A model generated the notes under the pieces. That model was given only the letters and a program-made list of their open reading frames with translations, was not told the origin of the DNA and did not search any database. A DNA stretch of 42,581 bases from positions 1 to 42,581 of the IMG/VR virus record IMGVR_UViG_3300022750_000005. One strand, written 5' to 3'. Positions 15,900-28,932 of the stretch are shown one piece after another. Numbering within the stretch: the first letter of the stretch is position 1; every line of letters begins with the position of its first letter. A program made the translations under genes and the position numbers. The DNA is from a virus.

Positions 15900-17000
15900 C
15901 TATTCTTTTACTTCAGTAATTGAAACTTGTGTGTTGGTTCTATAGTAGGGTGATTGACATCCTTCCTTTACAGGAATTCCCTTAATTGGCGTATCATGCC
16001 CGATACGGAGAATGTTTTTAGCTGCGTTCACATCCCGATCATGGGAAGCTCCGCAACTACATTGCCATTCTCTTACAGATAAGCCACTTAGTCCACTAGG
16101 CCCGCTTCTTTCGAGGCAAGCCGAGCAAGTTCTGCTTGTCCAACTTTCATTGACTACTTTCATTTCTTTGCCAAACCTAATGGTTTTGTACGCAAGCAAA
16201 GTCTTGTATGCGCCCCACGAAACATCTTGTACGCTTTTCGCCATTCGTGTTTTAATTAGTCCTTTTGAAGAAACGTTCCCAACCACAATTAGATCATATT
16301 CTTTTACCAGGCGAAGGGTTTCTTTGTGTAAAGAATCCTTTCTGGTATTGGCAATCTTTGCATGAATTACCTTTGTGCGCTTCTTTTTGCCAGCTCTCTG
16401 AGCCATAGCAAGGCGATCTTCATACTCCTTTGTAGATTTACTACCGACAAATGAAGTGCCGTCTGAATACGTTGCAGTGGCCTTTAACCCAAGATCAACC
16501 CCTATACTTTTCCCTGTTTTGGCGTAATGGTACGGATCAACCTCGCAAACAAGATTCACATACCACCTCCCCCGTGAATCCTGGTTAAAAGATCCGCACT
16601 TGATAGTTCCGACAAATTGAGTTTCCCAGAATTGGAATAATGTTTTATTGTACTTTACCTTTCCTTCTCCAAGATACTTTATAGACTGTTTTTTAAATGG
16701 TATCCATCCAAGGGATTTTTTGCCCCGCCAAGAAAGTTTCTTCTTTTTAAATTTCCTTCTCTTAATTACATACTCATCTGCAACCCCTTGTACTGTCTCT
16801 GATACTAACCCTAAATCAGATGCAACTCCGGAGGTTAATTTGTGTAGATCAAAATTAGATAGCCATTTCTGATTATAATCAACCGACTTGATATTTGCCT
16901 CATTGCAGTAGTTCCAGACACGATTTACAGAATGAGAGATCTTACTAAGCTTTGCAGCCGAAGAAGAGTCCTTTATTCTGTATTTTCGTGTTAGAATCAT
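15900..17000 (-). CDS. tnpB: TnpB-like RNA-guided nuclease (IS200/IS605 OrfB family), embedded in the phage operon
   Basis: This gene encodes 366 residues, the usual TnpB size. The RuvC-I motif is SIGVDLGLKA (D169). The RuvC-II segment reads DLIVVGNVSSKGL (236-248), with G-N where most TnpBs have the catalytic Glu. A Glu at 285 in VVNESWTSRTC may substitute, as in TnpB lineages with a rearranged active site. The zinc finger uses C292, C295, C314 and C316, and RuvC-III is DRDVNAAKNI (D321/D323). No TnpA is nearby. The ATG overlaps the preceding stop (ATGA) and the next gene starts six bases after the TAA, so insertion-sequence ends are absent. It may be an exapted nuclease or RNA-guided regulator. 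Family certain; role open. Confidence 0.9.
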   Translation of the reverse strand: MILTRKYRIKDSSSAAKLSKISHSVNRVWNYCNEANIKSVDYNQKWLSNFDLHKLTSGVASDLGLVSETVQGVADEYVIKRRKFKKKKLSWRGKKSLGWIPFKKQSIKYLGEGKVKYNKTLFQFWETQFVGTIKCGSFNQDSRGRWYVNLVCEVDPYHYAKTGKSIGVDLGLKATATYSDGTSFVGSKSTKEYEDRLAMAQRAGKKKRTKVIHAKIANTRKDSLHKETLRLVKEYDLIVVGNVSSKGLIKTRMAKSVQDVSWGAYKTLLAYKTIRFGKEMKVVNESWTSRTCSACLERSGPSGLSGLSVREWQCSCGASHDRDVNAAKNILRIGHDTPIKGIPVKEGCQSPYYRTNTQVSITEVKE

Positions 17001-18596: not shown

Positions 18597-18768
18597 GACT
18601 TTTATTTTAATTGTTAACCCTTATTTACACTAGATAAAATGACCGTCTTTCCGGTCTGCCAAAGAACCTATTCTTCCTGAGTCATCCCCATTCCGTTGAT
18701 TGAATACGAGTTGTACTATGGTTACAACTACCTCCTGTGCTTTATTTTCATCCTGTCACGTGGGATCG

Positions 18769-18872
18769 TGAAGCTGGCAGGATTCGAACCTGCACGATTA
18801 AAGCCTATGATAGGGGCAATAACCTACACTTAGCCTATCCACCTGTTGCGTCTTCCATTTCGCCACAGCTTC
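18769..18872 (-). tRNA. tRNA-like RNA 1 (Leu-type arms, no assignable anticodon)
   Basis: The acceptor stem GAAGCTG/CAGCTTC is perfect (18866-18872 with 18770-18776). A Leu-type D arm (GCG, AAATGGAAGA, CGC; 18848-18863) and T arm GCAGG-TTCGAAT-CCTGC are intact. Between the D and T arms lie 54 bases (18794-18847) where about 31 are normal, and no 5-bp anticodon stem with a U33 loop can be drawn. A GCC...CTAT/ATAGGC hairpin sits where a variable arm would be. There is no encoded CCA. It is either a degenerate tRNA or an RNA that mimics tRNA-Leu. Confidence 0.6.
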
Positions 18873-18939
18873 CAATTTGCAGGTCTATTCCCTGCGGTCA
18901 TGTAAGCCTCTATTCTTACAGTCATTAGATCAATCTAAG

Positions 18940-19142
18940 CGGATCGGGCAGGACTTGAACCTGCACAGGTATATTGCTACTCATTTTGCTCTTTTTATCT
19001 ACGGAATCACCACCGTTTCCTCCTGTTATGTGTTTTATTATTGGCTTTTTCACCTGCCAATCCCGCCTATCATTTCCTATAGGCCTGAGGTTAGAGCATT
19101 ACCTTACTGCTTAATAGCGTCTTCCAATTCCGCCACCGATCC
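18940..19142 (-). tRNA. tRNA-like RNA 2 (203 nt, 152-nt central insertion)
   Basis: The acceptor stem GGATCGG/CCGATCC is perfect (19136-19142 with 18941-18947). The D arm has GCG/CGC around GAATTGGAAGA, and the T arm is GCAGG-TTCAAGT-CCTGC. The central 152 bases (18965-19116) contain two perfect 6-bp hairpins (GCCTAT/ATAGGC and ATTGGC/GCCAAT), an AGGAGG sequence, and only a doubtful anticodon-like stem (TATTA/TAATG with a 10-base loop). Splicing motifs of a group I intron were not found. No encoded CCA. Confidence 0.6.
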
Positions 19143-28222: not shown

Positions 28223-28330
28223 TTAAAAGTTTTCGTTATCTGAATCGATTCTCTGTGCGATGCTGTCTGTTTCAATAAAGAACCAAAACGCCAATGTCAG
28301 TATCGAAAAACACACTCCTATAAATTCCAT
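28223..28330 (-). CDS. small membrane protein (35 aa)
   Basis: This short gene begins MEFIGVCFSILTLAFWFFIE with a single membrane segment and a polar C-terminus ending DNENF. It overlaps the HTH gene's end by 13 bases and ends five bases before the next start. Probably real, small early host-membrane protein. Confidence 0.45.
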   Translation of the reverse strand: MEFIGVCFSILTLAFWFFIETDSIAQRIDSDNENF

Positions 28331-28533
28331 ATCTTTTGCTTTAAAAGTTTTTCAATTAATTTTCTGTCATCCGCTGAAACTTTTTGCTCTCCCTGCTCTA
28401 CAAGGTATACCCATGTTTCACTTTTTTCTAATGACTTTGCAAAGTCTTTTTTCTTAATACCCAACTCTTTGCGCCTGTTTTTTATCTGAATCGCTATTGA
28501 ATATTGTCTGCTTTCTATTTGTTGTTCGTTCAT
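28318..28533 (-). CDS. XRE-type HTH regulator, first gene of the leftward operon
   Basis: This gene encodes 71 residues. IAIQIKNRRKELGIKKKDFA then SLEKSETWVYLVEQGEQKVS forms a full Xre/Cro-like HTH. It is the first gene after the large intergenic region, the classical place of an early regulator. A candidate promoter box ends only about 5 bases before the ATG, so its mRNA may be leaderless. It may control early transcription and possibly the divergent plus-strand RNA. Confidence 0.78.
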   Translation of the reverse strand: MNEQQIESRQYSIAIQIKNRRKELGIKKKDFAKSLEKSETWVYLVEQGEQKVSADDRKLIEKLLKQKIWNL

Positions 28534-28568: not shown

Positions 28569-28627
28569 AGTATTTAGTAAATAAACCGTAAGTATTTCGT
28601 TATGTATTGATAATCAGACAGAATAAT

Positions 28628-28658
28628 TTTGAATATTGGAATGATTGTTTTACTTTTG
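28628..28658 (+). promoter_or_regulatory. consensus Bacteroidota promoter driving the plus-strand RNA
   Basis: TTTG (28628-28631), 19 bases, and TACTTTTG (28651-28658) match the Bacteroidota housekeeping promoter TTTG-N19-TAnnTTTG exactly. The start site expected about 5-7 bases downstream coincides with the 5' end of the tRNA-like RNA at 28665. Confidence 0.8.
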
Positions 28659-28664
28659 GGTTAT

Positions 28665-28816
28665 AGTAATGTGGTGGAATTGGCAAACACACCCTCCTTG
28701 TCTCGGGGGCGCTGAATCTAAATAAAGACGTTGTACAGTCGAAAGACGGGGATTGACCACCAAAACCTTGCAATGTTCCTAATTACAGCTTACAGGTTCG
28801 ATGCCTGTCTTTACTG
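28665..28816 (+). tRNA. tRNA-like RNA 3 (101-nt central insertion)
   Basis: The acceptor stem AGTAATG/CTTTACT pairs at six of seven positions. The D arm is GTG-GAATTGGCAAA-CAC (28674-28690), and the T arm is ACAGG-TTCGATG-CCTGT (28792-28808). The region between is 101 bases (28691-28791). CCTCC-TTGTCTC-GGGGG resembles an anticodon arm (GTC) but has an extra base before it and no purine at position 37. The rest holds a GTC-GAAA-GAC hairpin. It is the body of an independently transcribed RNA. Confidence 0.6.
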
Positions 28817-28831
28817 CAACTAAATAAATTC

Positions 28832-28913
28832 GATCTCGTACATCGAAAAGAAAGACTTAAATAGCATGACCAGATGTTATCTGTTCATTTAAAGCCCGAT
28901 GATGTACGAGATC
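28832..28913 (+). repeat. 13-bp inverted repeat forming an alternative to the terminator
   Basis: GATCTCGTACATC (28832-28844) is perfectly complementary to GATGTACGAGATC (28901-28913). The second copy lies inside the terminator hairpin, so both structures cannot form at once. Between them ATGAcCAGAT-gtt-ATCTGtTCAT forms another hairpin. Confidence 0.8.
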
Positions 28914-28932
28914 ATTGGGCTTTTGCTTTTTG
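28891..28932 (+). terminator. intrinsic terminator of the plus-strand RNA
   Basis: AAAGCCCGATGA (28891-28902) pairs with TCATTGGGCTTT (28912-28923), 12 bp with one G-U, followed by TTTTGCTTTTT. Confidence 0.85.

Follow-up and report, generated by a model that had tools for sequence, protein, structure and literature searches.

A divergent pair of genes, asnC and asnA, is found in E. coli. In Deinococcus, Thermus and Bdellovibrio, asparagine biosynthesis is tRNA-dependent, with AspRS and GatCAB acting on tRNA-Asn (PMC4206432). The determinants of AspRS are G73, G34, U35, C36 and C38, and the pair G1-C72 is said to help the bacterial enzyme place the acceptor end (PMC9976931); amidation by GatCAB is promoted by U1-A72 and prevented by G1-C72 and by U20a (PMC9976931, PMC4206432).

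The window analyzed in this study is the whole 42,581-nt stretch of viral DNA recorded in IMG/VR as IMGVR_UViG_3300022750_000005. Its element at 28628-28932 of the plus strand is a real RNA gene, beyond what chance would produce, and is best read from sequence comparisons as a phage copy of a tRNA-like RNA encoded in Bacteroidota chromosomes. On balance, we lean towards the view that this RNA is a tRNA-like cofactor that does not decode and is dedicated to making asparagine by the tRNA-dependent route, and that phages captured it as an RNA metabolic gene.

The RNA gene in the phage window

Every substantial gene of the window lies on the minus strand, including the gene nearest to the element, which encodes a Cro/CI-like HTH protein (28318-28533, minus strand). 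Direct reading of the plus strand confirmed the independent RNA with its own promoter that an earlier note on this DNA had described: the Bacteroidota-type promoter (28628-28658) consists of TTTG at 28628-28631, a 19-nt spacer and TACTTTTG at 28651-28658. The tRNA-like body (28665-28817, plus strand) has the class II form, and its acceptor stem (AGTAATG/CTTTACT) opens with A1-U72, forms six of seven pairs with one mismatch, and is followed by G73 at 28816 and C74 at 28817. The D arm is Leu-type. The anticodon arm (CCTCC-TTGTCTC-GGGGG, 28693-28709, plus strand) has its loop at 28698-28704, with G34 U35 C36 at 28700-28702 followed by U37 and C38, and the T arm (ACAGG-TTCGATG-CCTGT, 28792-28808, plus strand) forms five of five pairs in a helix that is 100% paired throughout the family.

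A structured variable domain of approximately 80 nt (28711-28789, plus strand) was delimited with alignment A1 and pair counts. Its helices P1 (GCTG/CAGC, 28711-28714/28786-28789) and P2 (TAA/TTA, 28719-28721/28783-28785) are paired in the window and carry two-sided changes in the family; alignment A1 also places an internal loop (AUAAA, 28722-28726; CUAA, 28779-28782) and, at 28748-28761, the apical motif GGGGATTGACCACC, which corresponds to an apical GGNTTGACCAC motif common to the other long copies, phage and chromosomal. By eye only, it was also noticed that the apical ACCAC could pair with GUGGU of the D arm.

Assignment of the body rests on two covariance models: R1, built from 31 phage and chromosomal copies, scores the window copy at 95.8 bits, and R2, built from chromosomal sequences only (its alignment having been made with R1, which included phage copies), finds the body at full length with 83.4 bits and E=1.4e-21. 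These scores uphold the tRNA-like fold proposed previously, with the 3' limit refined to 28816/28817. In the R1 alignment, 95.1% of cells are paired and 24 of 27 pairs changed on both sides, far more than in shuffled and slid controls, so that the compensatory changes the earlier note had named as a test are plentiful in the body. All seven pairs of P1 and P2 show two-sided changes, i.e., helices within the variable domain covary. The plain energy fold of the element is unremarkable (z -1.8, weak evidence on its own). We considered and rejected a group I intron remnant: the additional sequence lies in the variable region, where it covaries as a separate domain, and it does not resemble the true group I-like inserts of tRNA-Leu at L071 and similar loci.

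The closest phage relative, IMG/VR 3300023103_000009 (L057/L002), retains 28606-28818 with 97% identity across 213 bases and diverges outside; nearly all of the 45 bases immediately 5' of the RNA are identical between the two phages, with divergence farther upstream. Beyond the body, a trailer hairpin (TTCGAT-CTCGTAC-ATCGAA, 28829-28847, plus strand) precedes the strong intrinsic terminator that was expected to end the RNA, comprising a hairpin at 28891-28923 with loop GTACGAG (28904-28910) and a T-rich tail to 28932; L057 has a counterpart of other sequence. From a 13-base complementarity the earlier note had proposed a choice between terminator and antiterminator. The complementarity is exact in the window phage (28832-28844 is the reverse complement of 28901-28913) and would suit such a switch, but its core is only a loop-loop match of 7 nt (28835-28841 with 28904-28910), in which CTCGTAC faces its perfect complement GTACGAG and which the stems extend. 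The trailer of L057, the only relative with a comparable one, differs in sequence; its loops, GTACCAG and CTGGTAC, are again perfect 7-base complements, with five of seven positions changed from the window. In L057 the complementarity extends no further than the two loops, so a kissing contact between them can form with both hairpins intact, and the covariation of the loops appears to fit such a contact better than an antiterminator. The comparison with L057 revealed no conserved, mutually exclusive pairing able to unfold the terminator, loop-loop complementarity was absent downstream of the other phage copies inspected (being seen in the window phage and L057 only), and no gene lies downstream; an RNA switch is thus scarcely credible. 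Processing of the 3' end as in tRNA would remove the trailer. As GTAC occurs in each loop, intermolecular pairing is possible too.

Elsewhere in the window, two tandem tRNA-like RNAs (18939-19142 and 18768-18872, both minus strand) have intact acceptor, D and T arms, no recognizable anticodon arm, and inserts of very unequal length. ARAGORN misses both, the Rfam tRNA model matches only 18768-18872 (39.9 bits), and R2 finds the two at E values of 1e-10 and 1e-9, respectively. Similar RNAs with an abnormal or absent anticodon arm were observed in other phages: L192 (4516-4660, minus), L203 (12281-12379, plus) and L086 (8138-8277, minus), all three of which carry the main RNA family too, as well as L106 (3027-3137 and 3149-3259, plus) and L124 (3383-3502, 3523-3714, 4259-4367 and 4374-4480, minus). 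Possibly these constitute a second tRNA-like family. The window also holds an IS605/TnpB-type transposase gene (15900-17000, minus strand; phrog_506, E 7.5e-66).

Distribution and conserved positions of the RNA family

Of the 296 Bacteroidota genomes sampled, R1 picked out 31 as carriers of the RNA; their copies score at least 83 bits, and no other genome hit, genuine tRNA-Leu included, exceeds 72 bits. When bacterial genomes were scanned by pattern, at least 120 stretches came up in Pedobacter and its relatives, mainly isolates, with a single copy or two in tandem. Pattern scans of IMG/VR showed that unrelated phage contigs carry the RNA too, always in class II form with the loop YUGUCUC or near it, G73 and C74; it is also present in the 636-kb phage genome LR756504.1 and in the 310-kb phage L086, and carrier phages span about 30 kb to 636 kb. 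The motif GGNUUGACCAC recurs in several phage copies that have the same long variable domain. A role in packaging or replication, as suggested in the earlier note, gains no support, because Pedobacter and other Bacteroidota encode this RNA in their chromosomes. The Bacteroidota promoter is not enriched directly upstream of host copies (3 of 110 vs. 1.4 in shuffles), which leaves an ancestral origin of the phage promoter unsupported.

Existing resources largely pass over the family. At the gathering score, Rfam recognizes neither the window element nor the copies of the eight loci that were searched. ARAGORN overlooks the window copy as well as all eight host loci on which it was run, and labels two short phage copies tRNA-Asp(gtc). 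At the DNA level, the window stretch matched none of the named phages, and with other family members LR756504.1 was the only match. The RNA is nowhere described in the open-access literature searched; a description elsewhere is possible.

Position counts were made over 139 distinct copies, phage and chromosomal, all of which have the class II form. U35, C36, G73 and C74 are each present in 139 of 139, and G34 and C38 in 138 each; because the patterns used to retrieve phage copies fix most of the anticodon loop, the statement on the loop rests mainly on 49 distinct chromosomal copies, detected by covariance model rather than pattern, which keep GUC with a single exception at position 34. The pair 1-72 is U-A in 136 copies and A-U in three (the window, L057/L002 and L064). 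No copy has A at position 37, where U, C and G occur, and U33 is retained in 129 copies, the remaining ten having A, C or G; the same 49 chromosomal copies vary at both 33 and 37 (loops CAGTCTC, TCGTCTC, CGGTCTC, TTGTCCC and TTGTCGC). As judged from these alignments, the conserved set is that of the AspRS determinants together with the GatCAB amidation determinant U1-A72 (A1-U72 in the window phage), and the features of decoding are eroded.

Besides the family RNA, Pedobacter nanyangensis has a nearly full set of ordinary tRNAs and a canonical tRNA-Asp with G1-C72 and the loop CTGTCAC, and phage L086 carries both the family RNA and a normal tRNA-Asp. Therefore, the family RNA is an extra in these carriers, and a replacement tRNA-Asp was rejected for Pedobacter and L086. 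In a genome that has AsnA, a class I-like RNA of 77 nt (G073:C23:55337-55413, minus strand; L412) with U1-A72, G73 and the loop CTATCTC scores 71.7 bits and is possibly an intermediate form.

Chromosomal neighborhood and co-occurrence with asparagine-related genes

A gene for an Lrp/AsnC-family regulator is divergent from the RNA in 131 of the 150 host loci listed, many of them from Pedobacter and hence non-independent, with 120-366 bp between starts. In a phylum-wide set the AsnC-family gene is divergent in 20 of 30 loci, and in the other ten it was absent from the 1.5-kb flanks examined. Pfam confirms the family of the regulator, and among NCBIfam models AsnC matches best, with E values of 7e-51 to 4e-55, although the matches stay below the strict cut-off of that model. 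The arrangement is a feature of the hosts only, with no divergent AsnC-type gene next to the window copy. No conserved adjoining transferase gene was observed in the five host loci inspected.

A role in asparagine synthesis predicts that carriers have GatCAB and can do without a protein asparagine synthetase. Co-occurrence was counted across the 296 genomes as raw numbers in which shared ancestry is left in, with gatB as the one GatCAB subunit searched. On this basis, gatB was over the cut-off in 31 of 31 carriers and present at full length in 209 of 265 non-carriers. AsnRS was found in all 31 carriers and GlnRS in 27, whereas E. coli-type AsnB occurs in none of the carriers vs. 41 of the 265 others. 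Independently of the RNA, none of the 41 genomes with E. coli-type AsnB has a full-length gatB, which suggests that the two are alternative routes in Bacteroidota. AsnA is present in three of the 31 carriers, and AsnB-like proteins of 600-650 aa occur in most of them, with paralogues common among non-carriers too.

A candidate RNA cofactor, its alternatives and known systems

Combined, the family constants, the AsnC-type neighborhood and the co-occurrence with gatB support a cofactor that would work as follows. The RNA would be transcribed from the Bacteroidota promoter and its ends processed as in tRNA, after which AspRS would load aspartate, as proposed because G34, U35, C36, C38 and G73 are kept. 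GatCAB would then amidate the RNA-bound Asp to Asn, the proposal here resting on the first pair of the family being U1-A72 (A1-U72 in the window copy) and not the G1-C72 of tRNA-Asp. The RNA would be kept out of translation, as the lost purine 37 (and, in a minority, U33) and the large variable domain suggest, and such exclusion would be needed because Asn would otherwise be misread into Asp codons. Finally, Asn would be released or passed on, the RNA thereby acting like asnA: in hosts it would stand under AsnC-type control in the place held by asnA in E. coli, and in the phage it would be an auxiliary metabolic gene that provides asparagine while the host is infected. The wider proposal, in which a non-coding RNA taken by phages from an AsnC-controlled host locus acts as an auxiliary metabolic gene, being aspartylated and amidated to make asparagine outside translation, appears to us evenly poised between right and wrong. 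Counted against the cofactor are the role of G1-C72 in AspRS, the AsnA of three carriers, the AsnB-like proteins, the 209 genomes with gatB and no detected RNA, the U33 that is mostly retained, the ten phylum-wide loci with no AsnC gene in their flanks, and the shared ancestry left in the genome counts. Amidation of the window copy itself is uncertain given A1-U72 and the acceptor mismatch; A1-U72, the chief doubt specific to this copy, may be a variant tolerated by GatCAB, or the phage copy may have a changed role.

The decoy or regulator mentioned in the earlier note survives in a narrower shape, as a mimic of AspRS/GatCAB substrates: the RNA would bind, and perhaps be charged by, AspRS and/or GatCAB and would sense or throttle Asp/Asn metabolism under the AsnC-type regulator, with the phage copy titrating the enzymes. 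The same identity elements and AsnC neighborhood would be expected of such a mimic, and the large variable domain, with its conserved internal loop and apical motif, suggests binding beyond charging; a pure binder, however, would have no need of the discriminator G, C74 and U1-A72, which are near-universal, and GatB, the catalytic partner, is retained in every carrier, so that we consider a regulatory mimic rather unlikely. Staphylococcal tRNA-Gly is used for peptidoglycan, and by analogy the charged RNA might donate Asp or Asn to a cell-wall, lipid or peptide acceptor. Elements for charging are indeed kept where decoding features are lost, but the conserved neighbor in the host is AsnC-type and no conserved transferase adjoins the RNA in the five loci, making a donor role improbable. 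We likewise give little credence to an unusual yet decoding tRNA-Asp, such as a phage tRNA with a loop altered against anticodon nucleases or one that supplements codons. The two ARAGORN calls, the neighboring tRNA genes of several phage copies and the prevalence of U33 would agree with decoding, whereas the complete lack of A37, the chromosomal copies with A, C or G at 33, and the normal tRNA-Asp of hosts and one phage speak against it, and decoding would leave both the conservation of U1-A72 and the AsnC link unexplained.

If the RNA is a cofactor for asparagine synthesis, the synthesis of an amino acid would depend not on a synthetase but on an RNA cofactor dedicated to it, and phages could raise host metabolism by means of an RNA gene, which would be a new role for phage RNA. 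A simple answer would also be at hand for the retention of GatCAB despite AsnRS and, mostly, GlnRS, as GatCAB may act on the family RNA. The analysis additionally reveals a conserved RNA gene family that is absent from Rfam, mostly missed by ARAGORN, and present in about one tenth of the sampled Bacteroidota genomes as well as in phages.

Among known RNAs, the family resembles canonical tRNA-Asp(GUC) in G34 U35 C36, C38 and G73, and differs from it in the class II form, the variable domain, the Leu-type D arm, U1-A72 in place of G1-C72, and the lack of A37 and U20a; the window copy likewise departs from G1-C72, a purine at 37 and class I form, having A1-U72, U37 and a variable region of about 80 nt. 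With tRNA-Leu, also class II, it shares the D-arm sequence GTGRAATTGGYARACAC and the long variable arm, but it has G73 instead of A73, the loop GUC and another acceptor. The Bacillus cereus pseudo-tRNA tRNAOther is similarly tRNA-shaped and reported to be non-functional in translation (PMC3399842), a likeness by description; it belongs to another host phylum, and no asparagine role is reported for it. Like asnA in E. coli, the RNA is divergent from an AsnC-type gene, although the partner here is an RNA gene and not AsnA. The closest parallel to the proposed cofactor is the tRNA-Asn route, with the same proposed enzymes, the same U1-A72 signal, and carriers that have AsnRS, GatCAB and usually GlnRS and lack E. 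coli-type AsnB. That route employs an ordinary decoding tRNA-Asn (GUU) and needs a non-discriminating AspRS, whereas the family is a separate RNA with the Asp anticodon GUC and eroded decoding, for which a discriminating AspRS would suffice. Overall, tRNA-dependent asparagine synthesis on tRNA-Asn is known, and what is new within the literature searched is a separate, GUC-bearing and apparently non-decoding RNA that is found in phages as well.
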